64,000 bases of DNA, taken from positions 1 to 64,000 of the forward strand of contig JAJPJI010000030.1 in assembly GCA_021324305.1 (NCBI GenBank). The letters run 5' to 3'. Position 1 is the stretch's first letter; each line of letters begins with the position of its first letter. This DNA comes from Gammaproteobacteria bacterium. GTDB lineage: Bacteria > Pseudomonadota > Gammaproteobacteria > DSM-16500. Shown here piece by piece: positions 9,792-32,816 of the stretch. A program made the translations under genes and the position numbers. The notes below the pieces were generated by a model. The model was not told where the DNA came from, searched no databases, and was given only the letters and a program-made list of their open reading frames with translations.

Positions 9792-10719
9792 GGTATTTGC
9801 TTCCATTTTGATTGATTAATTCCAGGCCGGGCTCTCTGCGGATTTCACCGATACAGGTGAATCGGCACGCAATCTGAGCAAGTTGTTTTTCAAGCTCGAG
9901 ACGGTGTTTGGCCGGCACGGTAAAACATAATTCATAATCATCGCCCGCAGTCAGCGCCAAAGCAATGGTTTCTTCGTGGGGCAATGAATGGGAAACAGCC
10001 TCTGATAATGGCAGTCTATCCACATACAAGATAGCTCCCATCCGGCTCTGCTCAAGAATATGTCCAAGATCAGCGGCGAGTCCGTCGGAGATATCAATGG
10101 CAGCGCTTGCGATACCGCGCAAATATTCGCCGACAACAATTCGCGGTTCAGGGCGGTTCAGTTTATCCAGGACGCTGTGCTGATATTGTTTATCCAGGTG
10201 AATCCGGTTTTGCAGGAAGCGCAATGCAAGACCAGCGTCTCCAATGGTGCCGGTGACATATATGAGGTCGCCGGGTTTTGCCTGTGATCGCAGCAATGCC
10301 TTGTGCGGTGGAATCAGACCCATTGCTTGCACGGTTATCGATAATGTGCCATGGGTCAAATCTCCGCCGATTAACTGGACCTGATAGCGATTGGCAAGGG
10401 TAAAAAATCCCTCGCAAAATGATCGTAGCCATTCCGGATTATCATCAGCCAGTGAGAGAGCCATTGTCACCCATGCGGGCGCTGCTCCCATGGCGGCGAG
10501 ATCACTCAGGTTGACAGCAAGGGATTTATGGCCAATATCGTAAGGCGAAGTGGTCATAGGGAAATGCACGCCGGCGATCAATGTGTCAGTGGTGACGGCC
10601 AGTTGATATCCCTGGGGAATGTTTACAATCGCAGCATCATCTCCGATGCCGACGACGACATCATTGCGCTGTTTGTTCTGGATTGCAAAATAATGCTTGA
10701 TAATATCGAATTCATTCAT
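9760..10719 (-). CDS. thiL: Thiamine-monophosphate kinase
   Basis: ThiL phosphorylates thiamine monophosphate to thiamine diphosphate, the active cofactor. The 319-residue protein begins with the typical NEFDIIKHYF and GIGDDAAIV, then shows SLAVNLSDLAAMGAAP, IGGDLTHG, YVTGTIGDAGLAL, AIDISDGLAADLGHI and TAGDDYELCFT, all matching the PurM-like ATP-binding family. It overlaps the upstream oxidoreductase gene by 4 nt and pgpA downstream, so the three genes are probably co-transcribed. Confidence 0.96.
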   Translation of the reverse strand: MNEFDIIKHYFAIQNKQRNDVVVGIGDDAAIVNIPQGYQLAVTTDTLIAGVHFPMTTSPYDIGHKSLAVNLSDLAAMGAAPAWVTMALSLADDNPEWLRSFCEGFFTLANRYQVQLIGGDLTHGTLSITVQAMGLIPPHKALLRSQAKPGDLIYVTGTIGDAGLALRFLQNRIHLDKQYQHSVLDKLNRPEPRIVVGEYLRGIASAAIDISDGLAADLGHILEQSRMGAILYVDRLPLSEAVSHSLPHEETIALALTAGDDYELCFTVPAKHRLELEKQLAQIACRFTCIGEIRREPGLELINQNGSKYHGPTTGYQHF

Positions 10720-27731: not shown

Positions 27732-27806
27732 TGGTGGGCGATAGTGGTTTCGAACCACTGACCCCTACCGTGTGAAGGTAGTGCTCTCCCGCTGAGCTAA
27801 TCGCCC
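27732..27806 (-). tRNA. tRNA-Val (CAC)
   Basis: A 75-nt cloverleaf reads on the minus strand, with a GGGCGAT acceptor stem, GCTCAGCGGGAGAGC D-arm, anticodon stem CTACC/GGTAG with loop TTCACAC (anticodon CAC), GTTCGAAAC T-loop and an encoded CCA end. Confidence 0.95.
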
Positions 27807-28038: not shown

Positions 28039-29967
28039 ATGAAACTGAATCCACGAATTATTGTATTTGCGTTTTTTTATCTGTCCCAGGCGGTATTTGC
28101 CCAGGGTCATTCCACTGTCATTCCTGAAGTCAGACAATCAAATCAACCGGTCGTCAACAGGCGGTATGCCCAGGTTCAAACTACGCATATCAAGCGCGAA
28201 GAAATCAAGACCAGCCCGGCGACCAATTTGTCGGAATTGTTGTCCCAGGAACAAAGTATCGTCCGCGTCACAAATAATTCGATGGACAGCAGTCAGACGG
28301 CTTTGAGTATCCGTGGATTTGGGGACAATGCAGCAGCCAATTCGCTGATTTTAGTGGATGGCTTTCCGCTCACCAATGTCAGTTTGCTGACGCCCAATTT
28401 CAATTCAATCGCATTGGCGGACATCGAGCGTATTGATATCGTTCAAGGCAGCCAGGGTTCACTCTGGGGCGATCAGGCGGTGGGCGGTGTTGTTAATATC
28501 ATCACGCGCCATCCGGAAAAATTTGTTGCAGACGCGCAGCTTGGATTGGGCAGTTTTCAGCAAAATTATTTTAATGCATTGCTGGGGAGCAAATTTTCGA
28601 GCGGCTTCTTTTTCAAAGCGTTTGGCTTTACCAATAACACGGACAATTATCGCAAACATAATCATCAACGAAATGAATCCATTTATGGACAGTCTGGAAT
28701 TGATTACGCGCGCGGCACGCTGAGTATTGGATTTCAGTCTTCCGAAACCACTGTCATGTTTCCTGGCGGGTTATCACAGCAGCAATTTGACAGTGATGCA
28801 AGTCAGGCGGTCAATTTTAAAAATTTCAGCCATATTAAAACGCAAATATTACAACTGCTTGACAAGCATGAACTTAATCCCGATTTGATTCTTGAGACAC
28901 GGATATCTCATCAGCAAGTGGATGGTGATGGTGTCATTGGCTCAGCGTTTAATCGTAATGAATGGGAAAACAGCTTTAATCCGAAGCTGACCGGATTGAT
29001 CAGGGACAAAAAATTCACGCTTGGATATCTGGTTCAAAATAGCCAGTATAATTTCATCAATTCATCCATCCATGAAAGAGCGCATGCGGTACAAAATGAT
29101 GTCTATGCTCAAACCATTATTCCGCTCACAAATCTGGTTGATTTGACGCTGGGTGCCCGGTTGGCCTGGCAATATAATACGGCAGAAGAAATTATTGGAC
29201 AGCCTGTTGATTCCATGAATCGTGTGTTTGTCACCGAACAGGGGGTGTCTTATCACCCTTCCCCTGAATGGCAGTTTTTTATAAGAAGAGACGGAAATTT
29301 TCGTTTTCCCAAGGCAAATGAAGAGACCTGGTCGCCTCCCGGAACGGCAGTCTTGCAGACGCAAACGGGCGTTTCATATGAAGCAGGGATAACGCGGAAC
29401 ACGGATAAACAAAAATCGCAGCTAAATCTATATCAGCTCGAGTTAAATCATGAAATTGCATTTGATCCAACTCAGACGCCGGAACAACCGTTTGGACAGT
29501 ATCGGAATTTTGAAACGACCAGGCGTCGTGGCATAACCCTGACCGAATATTACCGGCTGACTCCAGAATTCGCCCTGGATGCGCAGATTAACTACGTGGA
29601 CCCCCGATTTGCTTCAGGTCCGTTTTCCGGAAAGCGGATTCCAGCGGTGCCAAGTTATACTGCCAATGCCGGTGTAAATTATGATTTCATTGAAAACTGG
29701 CGGGTGAAATATTCAGCATTGTACACGGGAGCGCGATTCGCTTCACTGGATGATGCCAATATCGGCAAGCGGCTGGGCGGTTACTGGATCAGTACAATCG
29801 CGCTGCAATATATCCGCAAATCGTTTGATGTCAGCTTTGAGATTGATAATATGTTCAATCAGAAATATTCAACCTATACGCTTTTTACTGCACCTTCCAA
29901 TTCCTATTTGTATTATCCGGGGGCAGGCAGAAGTTACCTATTAACCATCAAGACCAGTATAGATTAG
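28039..29967 (+). CDS. TonB-dependent outer-membrane receptor
   Basis: This 642-residue receptor imports a scarce ligand across the outer membrane using TonB energy. A signal peptide (FYLSQAVFA|QG) is followed by a plug domain: ATNLSELLSQEQSIVRV, SIRGFGDNAAANSLILVDG, IERIDIVQGSQGSLWGDQAV and GGVVNIIT. The remainder is a beta-barrel of alternating aromatic strands. The C-terminus (YLLTIKTSID) lacks the usual terminal aromatic. It is directly followed by a tonB gene (1-nt overlap), a Cys-containing mini-protein and a GRDP-like gene. A cobalamin riboswitch or Fur box was not evident upstream. The size and plug are BtuB/siderophore-like, but the ligand is unknown. Confidence 0.88.
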   Translation: MKLNPRIIVFAFFYLSQAVFAQGHSTVIPEVRQSNQPVVNRRYAQVQTTHIKREEIKTSPATNLSELLSQEQSIVRVTNNSMDSSQTALSIRGFGDNAAANSLILVDGFPLTNVSLLTPNFNSIALADIERIDIVQGSQGSLWGDQAVGGVVNIITRHPEKFVADAQLGLGSFQQNYFNALLGSKFSSGFFFKAFGFTNNTDNYRKHNHQRNESIYGQSGIDYARGTLSIGFQSSETTVMFPGGLSQQQFDSDASQAVNFKNFSHIKTQILQLLDKHELNPDLILETRISHQQVDGDGVIGSAFNRNEWENSFNPKLTGLIRDKKFTLGYLVQNSQYNFINSSIHERAHAVQNDVYAQTIIPLTNLVDLTLGARLAWQYNTAEEIIGQPVDSMNRVFVTEQGVSYHPSPEWQFFIRRDGNFRFPKANEETWSPPGTAVLQTQTGVSYEAGITRNTDKQKSQLNLYQLELNHEIAFDPTQTPEQPFGQYRNFETTRRRGITLTEYYRLTPEFALDAQINYVDPRFASGPFSGKRIPAVPSYTANAGVNYDFIENWRVKYSALYTGARFASLDDANIGKRLGGYWISTIALQYIRKSFDVSFEIDNMFNQKYSTYTLFTAPSNSYLYYPGAGRSYLLTIKTSID

Positions 29968-30629
29968 TGAATACGATCAAGATAAATAATACAAAAGTTT
30001 ATTATTTCCTGTCTCTTGCCCTGCATGTGACCGGGTTGCTGGCGTTGGTCATGAATCTGGATTTTTCCAGCGAAACGCCGACGGTTGGCGATCCATCCGT
30101 CCGGCTGGTTAACTCTTACATCTATGCCAGCGATTCCATGCAAACTTCTGCTCAAACTGCGGCTCGTGAAGTACAGAGCCGGACGGAAGCAAAATCCTTG
30201 CCGGCAAAAAAAATGGATGCCGGCATCACTATCCAAAAAGCGGCGCGGCGTGTGATCAAAAGCGAAAAAAAAGCACCCGCGGCAAATGATGCGGTTAATC
30301 AGGCGGCGCAGCACTCTGTTTCTGCAAAAAGCAGTAACGGAGCGCCGACCGAGGAATTGCTCGCTTTTTTGCATGCTGCGATACAGAAGCAGCAGCGTTA
30401 TCCTGAAAGTGCCATGCAAATGGAGCGTCAAGGCAGGGCAACAGTGAAGTTTATGCTGTTCACGGACGGTTCCATCAACAACGTGCGAATCAGCAAATCT
30501 AGCGGCACAGAGAGTCTTGATAATGCGGCGCTCGCGGCTGTGCGCGATGCGGCGCCATTTCAGGGTGTGGACAAGTATATGACGGATGCGGGCGAATTCA
30601 GTATCGATGTGGTCTTCGAATTATCTTGA
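29967..30629 (+). CDS. tonB: Energy transducer TonB
   Basis: This 220-residue TonB-type protein links the proton motive force to the receptor encoded upstream. It has one N-terminal membrane anchor (about residues 12-32) and a periplasmic spacer rich in Ala and Lys that lacks the classic Pro repeats. The C-terminal TonB domain (about 130-220) includes QQRYPESAMQMERQGRATV, SINNVRISKSSGTESLDNAA and the final VVFELS. The GTG start overlaps the receptor stop (TAGTG), so it is coupled. ExbB and ExbD are not in the window. Confidence 0.85.
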   Translation: MNTIKINNTKVYYFLSLALHVTGLLALVMNLDFSSETPTVGDPSVRLVNSYIYASDSMQTSAQTAAREVQSRTEAKSLPAKKMDAGITIQKAARRVIKSEKKAPAANDAVNQAAQHSVSAKSSNGAPTEELLAFLHAAIQKQQRYPESAMQMERQGRATVKFMLFTDGSINNVRISKSSGTESLDNAALAAVRDAAPFQGVDKYMTDAGEFSIDVVFELS

Positions 30630-30708
30630 AATGCCGATAGCTCTGGAGTAGATTTTGCGCGTGTTCGGTTCAACGCCGTGCGTTTCTGGTACAAAGAGGA
30701 CAGTCAAT

Positions 30709-30870
30709 ATGAAAAATCAAATAACAGAAAACCAACTCACTGCTTCACTGGATGAAATTTTCATGGTGCCTTCAAGAGAAATCAGGACGGAGCGTTTTTC
30801 GCCCGAAAAGCAGGCGTCTTCCGCAGATTGCAGCGGAAAGTGCAATGGTGTTTGTCACGGGATGGCTTGA
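30709..30870 (+). CDS. 53-residue peptide with C-terminal Cys-x3-Cys-x3-Cys-His
   Basis: This small gene is supported by its place between tonB and the GRDP-like gene and by its own ATG at 30709 after an AGAGGACA ribosome site. The peptide has a charged 40-residue leader-like part (MKNQITENQLTASLDEIFMV at its start) and a Cys/Gly-rich end, CSGKCNGVCHG, with cysteines 41, 45 and 49. No signal peptide is seen. The leader-plus-core shape suggests either a modified-peptide (RiPP-type) precursor or a metal-binding mini-protein. I cannot assign it to a family. The stop is 8 nt before the likely start of the next gene. Confidence 0.55.
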   Translation: MKNQITENQLTASLDEIFMVPSREIRTERFSPEKQASSADCSGKCNGVCHGMA

Positions 30871-30878
30871 TCAGTCTG

Positions 30879-31316
30879 ATGGCAATGACTGAACACTCGA
30901 ATGGGGCGGTGAAAAATCCGCGCAATATCAGTCTGGACGAAGCAAGACGATATATAGATCAACTGGATTTAAGCTATATCGTTGAAGCCATGTGCGCGCC
31001 CCATTATCCCTTGCCTAGATGGACACTGTCTGACGCTAATCATTGTTGTCGGTTATACAAGAATTTTCTTTATCTTTTCAAGAAGCACTTGCCATTTCCC
31101 CTGGTGCCTACCAGGGAAATCGATGAGTTCTGGCATAATCATATTTTGTATACCCAGCAGTATTTTCGTGATTGCGAGAATATTTTTGGCCATTATTTAC
31201 ACCATGCTCCCGCGTCTCCCGCAGATAATCCGCAACAGTTGATTGATAATTTCCAGGTTACCAAACGGCTGTACCTTGAAGAGTTTAATCAGCCTCTGGT
31301 GCTGGAGCGCGGATAG
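30879..31316 (+). CDS. GRDP-like (DUF1399) protein
   Basis: This protein of about 145 residues resembles the 'glycine-rich domain-containing protein-like' family. The diagnostic stretch is REIDEFWHNHILYTQQYFRD, followed by C-x5-FGHYLHHAP, where the invariant Trp, His and Cys are present. No enzyme activity is established for the family. ATG 30879 is chosen, with ATG 30885 as an alternative; a longer frame through TTG 30828 would overlap the small peptide gene. Position after receptor, TonB and the Cys peptide suggests it acts on, or with, that peptide. Confidence 0.7.
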   Translation: MAMTEHSNGAVKNPRNISLDEARRYIDQLDLSYIVEAMCAPHYPLPRWTLSDANHCCRLYKNFLYLFKKHLPFPLVPTREIDEFWHNHILYTQQYFRDCENIFGHYLHHAPASPADNPQQLIDNFQVTKRLYLEEFNQPLVLERG

Positions 31317-31403: not shown

Positions 31404-32816
31404 ATGAATACCGTTCGTACACGATTTGCGCCAAGTCCTACCGGATTTTTACATATAGGCGGGGCACGGACTGCGCTCTATTGCTGGCTTTATGCCCGCA
31501 AGATGCGCGGCACGTTTATTCTTCGAATTGAGGATACTGACCTTGAGCGCTCGACGACCGAATCGGTGCAAGCCATCCTGGATGGAATGGACTGGCTTAA
31601 CCTGGGATATGATGAAGGCCCGTTTTACCAAACCAAACGCTTTCACCGTTATCATGAAGTGATAGAGCAAATGCTGAAAGAGGGAACCGCCTATCGCTGC
31701 TACTGCTCAAAAGAGCGCCTTGAGAAACTGCGTGAAGAGCAGATGGCGCGCAAGGAAAAGCCCCGCTACGATGGCAAATGCAGGAACTTGACCGAGCCGG
31801 GTGAAGGGCCGTTTGTAGTCCGTTTCAAAAATCCACTGGATGGCACGGTTGCGTTCGATGATCTTATTCGCGGACGGGTCAGTTTCGCAAACCTTGAACT
31901 CGACGATCTGATTATCGCGCGCAGCGATGGTTCTCCTACGTATAATTTCACAGTGGTTGTCGATGACTGGGACATGAAGATTACCCATGTTATACGCGGT
32001 GACGATCACATTAACAACACGCCGCGACAAATCAATATCCTGCGTGCACTGGGAGCGACGCCGCCCTTGTATGCGCATGTGCCTATGATTCTGGGCAGCG
32101 ATGGTAAGCGGCTTTCCAAGCGTCACGGTGCGGTGAGTGTATTGCAGTATCGCGAAGATGGCTATCTTCCCGAAGCATTGTTGAATTATCTTGCGCGTCT
32201 GGGCTGGTCACACGGAGATCAGGAGATTTTTTCAATCAGCGAATTAATTGAATATTTTGATATCAAGGATATCAACAGGGCGCCAGCCGCATTCAATCAG
32301 GAAAAACTGCTTTGGCTGAATCAGCATTACATGAAGAATTCCGACCCTGAACATGTGGCAAGAGAATTGCTTTGGCATATGGAACAGTTGGGCATTGATA
32401 TCAAACACGGCCCGCCGCTTACTGAAATCATCAAAGTCCAGGCGGAGCGGACCAAAACCTTGCGAGAGATGGCTGAACGCAGCCGGTATTTCTATGAATC
32501 CGTCGTGTTGACTGATGAAATGAAAGCGCATATTACGCCTGAAATCCTCCCCGCCCTGATCATGGTCAGTGACAGACTGGCTAACCTGCCTGAATGGACA
32601 AAGGAAGGAATACATGAAATTCTCGCGAGCACGGCCGAGATTCACGGCCTTAAATTGGGCAAACTGGCTCAGCCTGTCAGAATTGTTGTGACCGGTGGAA
32701 CCGTATCGCCGCCGATTGATGACACAATGGTATTGATTGGCCGGGAACGTGTTCTTGAACGGCTGAAGCGCATACATGACCTCGACATGCTCAGCGAGGT
32801 GGAAGACAAGGGATAG
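31404..32816 (+). CDS. gltX: Glutamyl-tRNA synthetase
   Basis: GltX charges tRNA-Glu with glutamate. The 470-residue class I synthetase has the HIGH-type motif [17 protein letters not shown] at the N-terminus and the KMSKS-type [18 protein letters not shown], with the FEDLIRG-like and [19 protein letters not shown] blocks between. Length and order match the canonical discriminating enzyme. Its tRNA-Glu substrate gene lies 350 nt downstream on the same strand. Confidence 0.97.

Follow-up and report, generated by a model that had tools for sequence, protein, structure and literature searches.

We analyzed a stretch of 64,000 nucleotides (referred to here as the window) from contig JAJPJI010000030.1 of a gammaproteobacterium of the DSM-16500 lineage (assembly GCA_021324305.1), and focused on four consecutive genes at positions 28039 to 31316, which encode a TonB-dependent receptor (TBDR), a TonB protein, a cysteine-rich peptide and a protein resembling the DUF1399, or GRDP, family. 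The evidence moderately favors a peptide system of the ribosomally synthesized and post-translationally modified peptide (RiPP) type, in which the GRDP-like protein would mature the peptide or load it with metal, and the TBDR and its TonB would import the product.

A four-gene cassette with a conserved cysteine peptide

The genes of the cassette are the following:

28039..29967, + strand: TBDR, 642 amino acids, no cysteine (Pfam Plug 1.1e-20, barrel 3.6e-23)
29967..30629, + strand: TonB protein, 220 amino acids, GTG start (Pfam TonB_C 2e-17)
30709..30870, + strand: precursor-like peptide, 53 amino acids, ATG start (putative leader TASLDEIFMVPSREIRTERF, putative core DCSGKCNGVCHGMA)
30879..31316, + strand: GRDP-like (DUF1399) protein, 143 to 145 amino acids, all-helical model, borderline match to PF07173

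The TBDR and TonB genes share one nucleotide (TAGTG), and a gap of 79 nucleotides separates TonB from the open reading frame (ORF) of the peptide, which has a GAGG 5' of its ATG. The ORF of the GRDP-like protein spans 30828 to 31316, and its likeliest start is the ATG at 30879 or 30885, 8 or 14 nucleotides past the stop codon of the peptide. Coordinates and domains bear out the arrangement given in a preliminary description of this DNA, i.e., TBDR, TonB, peptide and GRDP-like genes on one strand with a 1-nucleotide overlap or short gaps.

The peptide ends in C-x3-C-x3-C-H and has no match in Pfam or NCBIfam. In an alignment of 15 precursors, residues F30, C41, C45, G47 and C49 do not vary, and the N-terminal part follows the leader consensus LLxEIFxxPSxxxxxxRF. 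The ratio of nonsynonymous to synonymous substitutions (dN/dS, Nei-Gojobori) of the peptide was 0.24/1.66 = 0.14 for G000/G010, 0.18/1.13 = 0.16 for G342/G112 and 0.11/0.82 = 0.13 for G137/G254 (G labels denote genomes, with G000 as the window genome, and L labels denote loci). The peptide ORF is under purifying selection in all three pairs compared and, since a short ORF of this kind was also found at 15 of 18 related loci (see below), it is beyond chance. The leader-like start and the C-x3-C-x3-CH end noticed earlier are thus those of a conserved gene, with dN/dS values of 0.13 to 0.16. At the same 15 of 18 loci we find what is expected of a RiPP system, namely, a short precursor gene with a conserved leader and a cysteine core, next to the gene of a candidate enzyme.

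No Sec signal is apparent by eye in the precursor. Membership in the CCGSCS motif peptides (TIGR04101) was rejected, with 0 families for eight precursors; this search was silent in 185 genomes and in 14 controls alike, so that its silence is uninformative on absence. Weak matches to the precursor profile were seen in G158, G122, G141 and G370, where no short cysteine ORF was present under the filter applied, and a second one was seen in G312. A short ORF containing NCMGDCKGGEC (L104:1453-1578, G312:C86; precursor profile E 0.0013) lies near a peroxiredoxin-like gene, as judged by eye.

The GRDP-like protein reaches 22.4 bits against PF07173 (cut-off 22.7, E 2.1e-4), in a match that covers only profile positions 99 to 143, the last third. 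Its orthologs scatter around the same cut-off, some above it (L008, 30.4; L019, 26.9; L005, 26.5; L010, 22.9 bits) and some below (L015, 22.4; L018, 22.6; L006, 20.0 bits). Numbered from the Met at 30885, the window protein contains D80, W83, H84, H86, C97, G102, H106 and H107. In 29 aligned relatives, W46, Y58, P75, D80, W83, H84, H86, Y93, H106, H107 and P109 are invariant, C97 is conserved in at least 90% and G102 is nearly invariant. The Asp, Trp-His, Cys, His-His signature, which derives from these alignments and is not defined by Pfam, is present in the window protein, whose match to the Pfam family is borderline. Two details had to be corrected: the motif proposed as C-x5-FG-x3-HH reads C-x3-FG-x3-HH (DCENIFGHYLHH), and WH-x-H, described as invariant, is shared in a wider set of 72 distinct motif stretches between 35 with WH-x-H and 37 with WH-x-F (the search pattern itself required WH). 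An AlphaFold2 model of the GRDP-like protein, built from 11 sequences, consists of six helices (mean pLDDT 86), and the conserved D, H, C and HH residues may form one site. GRDP-like proteins of the peptide type can be told apart by a Y-[PCH]-[LM]-P-x-W insertion, which the other aligned GRDP-like proteins do not have. A UstYa match of one relative (L148, E 0.027) was judged to be due to chance.

Co-inheritance of the receptor, the peptide and the GRDP-like protein

Related loci were gathered by scanning genome contigs with the GRDP-like protein (10 loci) and by searching relatives, order and class, which yielded more. Eighteen distinct loci are of the peptide type (G000, G010, G003, G014, G007, G312, G342, G112, G099, G137, G254, G354, G363, G063, G033, G019, L010 and L011), and 15 of them have a short cysteine ORF directly upstream of the GRDP-like gene; the other three are G033, to which we return below, and G019 and L011, which lie at contig ends. 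The peptide-type loci span at least seven families (f1, f172, f79, f66, f104, f116 and f30, with L010 unassigned). A TBDR, whole or partial, adjoins 14 of the 15 peptide-bearing loci. The order TBDR-TonB-peptide-GRDP is found in line at nine of them (G000, G010, G003, G014, G312, G342, G112, G099 and G007); the contig end cuts the TBDR in G312 and G342, G112 has an extra ORF between TBDR and TonB, and TonB and GRDP are apparently broken in G099. In G007, the cassette TBDR is split between L078:5556-7067 and 10026-10478, on opposite strands of one contig, which points to an inversion or a misassembly. At five further loci (G137, G254, G354, G363 and L010), the TBDR is divergent from peptide and GRDP, with TonB beside the TBDR in G363 and L010 and a TBDR frame in pieces in G354. 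The last one, G063, has peptide and GRDP without an adjoining TBDR, and a TBDR elsewhere in its genome.

Among 369 genomes of the class, a profile of the precursor gave matches below 1e-10 in 10 genomes, which are the same 10 that carry a peptide-type GRDP (with E of 1e-50 or lower in nine of them, and broken pieces in G099), while the best score in the remaining 359 genomes was 7.7e-4. Given that the profile was made from these very loci, the informative part is the 359 genomes without a strong match. Loss of the small ORF in relatives and lack of co-inheritance had been named beforehand as outcomes that would speak against the cassette, and the opposite was found on both counts.

The receptor carries VIPEV near its N terminus, likely the TonB box, judging from a conserved IPE/IPD stretch. 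Among solved structures, FecA (1.8e-17), Cir and others come closest to it, all of them general TBDRs, and the curated receptor models among the matches listed are far under their cut-offs (e.g., 61.9 bits against a cut-off of 836 for the BtuB model NF007926). At E 1e-20, the window genome contains one other TBDR (L088:6944-9088, G000:C37), 33% identical to that of the cassette. This paralog is most likely the B12 receptor, because a cobalamin riboswitch (L088 6944-7151) immediately precedes it. We searched eight cassette sources for this riboswitch and found it in none, and we rejected cobalamin as the ligand of the cassette TBDR; this is no proof, as many BtuB receptors may lack the riboswitch.

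A TBDR/TonB operon for another ligand could also lie beside an unrelated peptide/GRDP pair, with no joint function. The absence of an adjoining TBDR in G063, the divergent layout at five loci and the resemblance of the cassette TBDR to the riboswitch-linked one are what such a neighborhood would look like. However, the TBDR accompanies the peptide in several families and in two layouts, the riboswitch is confined to the paralog, and G063 has a TBDR elsewhere whereas none was found at E 1e-20 in the whole genome of the peptide-less G033. The GRDP and TBDR distances are correlated as well: the identity matrices of nine cassettes gave r 0.87 (reached in 0 of 5000 permutations), and those of GRDP and TonB in seven cassettes gave r 0.73 (p 0.005), although such correlations would equally be expected from plain vertical descent of neighbors. 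Taken together, we consider mere adjacency improbable.

A stretch with TBDR, peptide and GRDP-like genes is also present on the Piscirickettsia salmonis plasmid pPSEM90-2 (L156:579-7232), flanked by transposase genes, those of IS6 on one side and a further one on the opposite side; the annotation there omits the peptide, and the GRDP match is in two pieces. The parts of two Piscirickettsia papers considered here mention TBDRs in general and not this cassette (PMC5625009, PMC5199080). ABC-2-like genes follow 3' of GRDP in Piscirickettsia and in G354, as judged by eye without a domain scan. In the window, an ORF resembling glutamyl-tRNA synthetase (judged by eye) lies 3' of the cassette at 31404, and the opposite strand has a tRNA gene at 27735-27806. 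A scan for promoters and terminators gave scores no better than shuffled sequence.

Cysteine-rich partners of GRDP-like proteins at other loci

GRDP-like proteins without the cassette peptide often finish in runs of Gly and Cys, such as GCGGCGGCGGCGGCGGCGG in L061. To count these fused tails, we used a strict rule, which asks for 3 Cys and 9 Gly within the final 45 residues, with other ORFs of at least 130 amino acids from the same loci as controls, and a lax rule (3 Cys). The strict rule was satisfied by 12 of 35 GRDP-like ORFs versus 1 of 55 control ORFs, by none of 19 of the peptide type and, at the phylum loci, by 9 of 31 GRDP-like ORFs versus 1 of 57 controls, with a few proteins counted more than once because their starts differ between overlapping loci. 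Under the lax rule, 32 of 91 GRDP-like ORFs have a Cys-rich C-terminal end versus 27 of 447 controls (Fisher p 1.8e-12), after removal of duplicates by their last 60 residues and of loci L004-L009, whose genomes already appear under G labels (L010 was kept). Both the 35-ORF and the 91-ORF count include pieces of broken genes (G099). Several tails have a YCASHIGC-like motif before the Gly/Cys run (L066, L070, L072, L073, L143, L148, L149 and L150). Repeats are fused to the domain in other cases: G676 (L160:7272-9638) encodes two tandem GRDP-like proteins with many copies of TAYCAGPHIGK and AFCAGPH, and repeats resembling AAWCSLEAGK and AYCAR occur on plasmids of Variovorax and Cupriavidus. A comparable build is described for Arabidopsis GRDP2, which combines DUF1399 with a Gly-rich C-terminal region in which Cys residues are interspersed, of consensus [CG]GGGCGG[GC] (PMC4299439).

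A second association involves precursors of the double-glycine type. In G672 (L159:4774-10059), three double-glycine ORFs (..LLDNISGG|REDAFCFELCWEFCLSICFEAQ and kin) lie upstream of two GRDP-like genes, followed by an HlyD-type gene and a C39-peptidase ABC transporter (Peptidase_C39 1.5e-38); no further modification enzyme was recognized by eye in this stretch. The two GRDP-like proteins escape Pfam and were found with a profile of the relatives alignment. Among the 152 genomes of the family of G672, 15 have a GRDP-like relative, and nine of these (G672, G859, G921, G838, G907, G819, G920, G865 and G896) have Cys-rich ORFs of the double-glycine type in the short stretch examined. Clusters with arrays of such precursors, one or two GRDP-like genes and an HlyD-like gene were noted at L159 (G672) and among L178-L188 and L193-L197. 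The order in G859, G921, G838 and G907 is copies of precursor A, GRDP A, precursor B, GRDP B and an HlyD-like ORF. In G896 and G865, stops interrupt the GRDP frame and the double-glycine ORF lies beyond an ORF of 341 amino acids. As to the other genomes, G852 is cut upstream, and G744 and G846 have fused tails. An HlyD-like ORF is present in seven of the nine double-glycine genomes and also in G852; the region of the C39 gene was examined in G672 only.

Plasmids of P. savastanoi and Halomonas present a third arrangement, with ORFs ending in GGGGHCQGGGGW and GGGHCQGGGSW, then a GRDP-like gene, then the gene of a membrane protein of 442 amino acids, which in Halomonas only has a weak MatE match under the cut-off (E 5e-4). 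The set of a short ORF ...GGGHCQGGG[GS]W, a GRDP-like gene and a membrane protein of about 440 amino acids was located at L157:2293-4281, L158:2243-4224 and L170:2817-4909. The Halomonas set adjoins a LuxR-family gene and an acyl-homoserine-lactone synthase gene. Nine of the 21 matched plasmid records were examined, and eight of the nine have either the cassette or another Cys feature, namely a short ORF, repeats or a tail; the Azospirillum tail is short, and Maritalea has no clear Cys feature. Finally, tiny basic peptides (24 to 35 amino acids) with a C-terminal Cys occur near GRDP-like genes in the order of the window organism and elsewhere (L171, L172, L174, L175, L177; L039, L041), and the pair G027/G002 was the best of 1085 small-ORF pairs.

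The simplest account of these associations is that the domain acts on Cys peptides, in trans on a leader-bearing precursor and in cis on a tail. In a broader form, which we put forward tentatively and rate as possible rather than probable, GRDP-like (DUF1399) proteins would be the class-defining enzymes of an unrecognized, very broad class of ribosomal peptides with Cys (and Gly/His) cores. They would act in trans on at least four unrelated kinds of leader-bearing short precursors (the TBDR cassette, double-glycine bacteriocin-type arrays, GGGHCQGGGxW plasmid peptides and tiny basic peptides) and in cis on a fused Gly/Cys tail or repeat array, the plant GRDPs with GGGCGG tails would be a eukaryotic branch, and the lineage of the window would have coupled the domain to a private TBDR/TonB pair as a peptide metallophore loop. 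This estimate applies to all these parts jointly.

Proposed mechanism, alternatives and known systems

For the window cassette, we propose that the 53-amino-acid ORF is the precursor, whose conserved N-terminal segment would serve as a leader recognized by the GRDP-like protein and whose C-terminal segment, C-S-G-K-C-N-G-V-C-H, would be the core. The GRDP-like protein would act as the maturase or as a required partner, modifying the Cys residues or loading them with metal, probably by way of a metal site made of the conserved D/H/C/HH residues. Leader removal and export would be carried out by unlinked machinery, and the product, probably a metal complex, would be taken up again by the TBDR powered by its own TonB. 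TBDRs import scarce ligands and, by analogy with methanobactin, a complex of Cys peptide and metal is the obvious candidate.

Several observations weigh against this proposal. No protease or exporter was seen in the window cassette, nor in most cassettes of its relatives; a clustered exporter or leader peptidase is common in RiPP systems, if not obligatory. G033 has kept a peptide-type GRDP without a neighboring peptide, and three of the 15 GRDP-bearing genomes in the family of G672 (G800, G915 and G916) have neither precursor nor tail in the stretch examined. Upstream small Cys ORFs under the lax rule accompany 37 of 91 GRDP-like ORFs versus 119 of 447 controls, a slight excess over control, and we therefore build the case on the tails and on the families of homologous precursors instead. 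Eight of 34 tiny-peptide comparisons are among the ten best pairs, the others being unremarkable, and searches of solved structures by sequence gave no significant GRDP relative. A Fur or Zur regulon was rejected as well, as crude consensus matching gave no convincing box: upstream of the window TBDR, no Fur match exceeded 12/19, a score reached in 34 of 200 shuffles, and the sole low count among 18 Fur/Zur tests was Zur in G003 (1 of 200 shuffles; G007 gave no upstream stretch).

The same genes might handle metal with no covalent change to the peptide. The GRDP-like protein would then be a metallochaperone or insertase, the Cys peptide or tail an intracellular metal carrier or store, and the TBDR/TonB pair an importer of that metal, alone or as a chelate. 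In favor of this, soft metals are naturally bound by Cys/Gly(His)-rich peptides and tails, the GRDP-like domain conserves D, H, C and HH, a TBDR and TonB adjoin, and no exporter or protease was seen in the cassette. Metal loading alone accounts for the window cassette about equally well. It fits the double-glycine arrays less well than maturation does, since their precursors, together with the HlyD-like ORF and, in G672, the C39 exporter, fit secretion and not an intracellular carrier. The cores also vary widely across GRDP branches, some with a single Cys per unit, and the lack of a convincing Fur/Zur box is a further point against metal handling, which we hold to be rather unlikely overall.

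Alternatively, an unlinked MNIO (DUF692) enzyme could modify the peptide as in bufferins or methanobactin, leaving the GRDP-like protein as an adaptor or scaffold and making its fused-tail relatives MNIO substrates, as proposed for TIGR04222 proteins. MNIO genes are present elsewhere in nine of the 11 cassette genomes, the xGxC cores look by eye like the EGKCG cores of bufferins, and the tails of TIGR04222 proteins resemble the fused tails described here (PMC12452194). On the other hand, two of the 11 genomes, G363 (99% complete) and G014 (81%), carry the cassette with no MNIO match, no MNIO-like ORF was found in the GRDP loci searched (many of only ~3 kb), and the precursor has no apparent Sec signal. 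TIGR04222 membership was also rejected: neither the window protein nor 10 fused-tail relatives (0/10) matched the model up to E 1. Dependence on MNIO is thus unlikely, and this version of events has a low probability.

RiPP-type maturation by the GRDP-like protein, with uptake by the TBDR, invites comparison with known systems. Methanobactin has a precursor with a leader and a Cys core but no Sec signal, is taken up again by a TBDR and has a MATE exporter in its clusters. The cassette resembles it in the kind of precursor and in having a TBDR, there for putative re-uptake, and a GRDP relative on a Halomonas plasmid has the weak MatE neighbor. It differs in that the TBDR comes with a dedicated TonB, that an exporter was not seen in the window cassette, that the cassettes examined and their surroundings showed no MNIO-like ORF, and that the candidate maturase is GRDP-like. 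Borosin maturases, which are N-methyltransferases, are fused to or separate from their core peptide, an arrangement that offers an analogy only. The cluster of G672 has the layout of double-glycine/C39 bacteriocins, and its relatives share the precursors and HlyD-like ORFs, whereas the window cassette has neither a double-glycine leader nor a C39 exporter. Bufferins and other MNIO peptides are like the cassette in their tiny gene sets and Cys-bearing xGxC motifs, but their precursors have Sec signals and MNIO and DUF2063 partners (PMC12452194), none of which were seen here. TIGR04222 membrane proteins, with their Ser/Gly/Cys tails, join a folded part to a C-terminal Gly/Cys tail as many GRDP-like proteins do (PMC12452194), but the latter are distinguished by the signature D-x2-WH...C...HH. 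The plant proteins AtGRDP1/2 likewise combine DUF1399 with a Gly-rich C-terminal region with interspersed Cys, yet they are long, have an RNP motif and show stress and development phenotypes, and the part of the paper considered mentions no RiPP role (PMC4299439).

In the literature found, DUF1399 is mainly a label of plant genes of unknown biochemical function (e.g., PMC4299439), and the titles and abstract beginnings of the open-access papers searched, a scope outside which subscription papers and bioRxiv preprints not in PMC fall, gave no link between DUF1399 or GRDP and RiPPs, nor any paper that treats GRDP-like proteins together with TBDRs. We regard the cassette as a candidate RiPP-type system with TBDR uptake, and DUF1399 as a candidate maturase family. 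The arrangement first observed in the window is confirmed, and its earlier interpretation is partly supported and widened. Of the two options offered then, a pathway in which GRDP acts on a modified peptide gained independent support from the fused Cys tails, the double-glycine arrays and the plasmid sets; the other, metal acquisition, is a possibility with no convincing Fur or Zur box behind it. Gene order, conservation, purifying selection, co-inheritance and the recurring association with Cys peptides are what the sequences show, and from these we infer the enzyme activity, the metal site and metal binding, leader cleavage, export and the ligand of the receptor. If DUF1399 matures Cys peptides, a large set of bacterial peptides that lack annotation would become testable as modified peptides, perhaps along with the tails of plant GRDPs, and the four genes of the window would make up a peptide-uptake system of very small size. 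Should the GRDP-like protein instead prove to load metal, its tie to Cys peptides would still offer a concrete assay for it.

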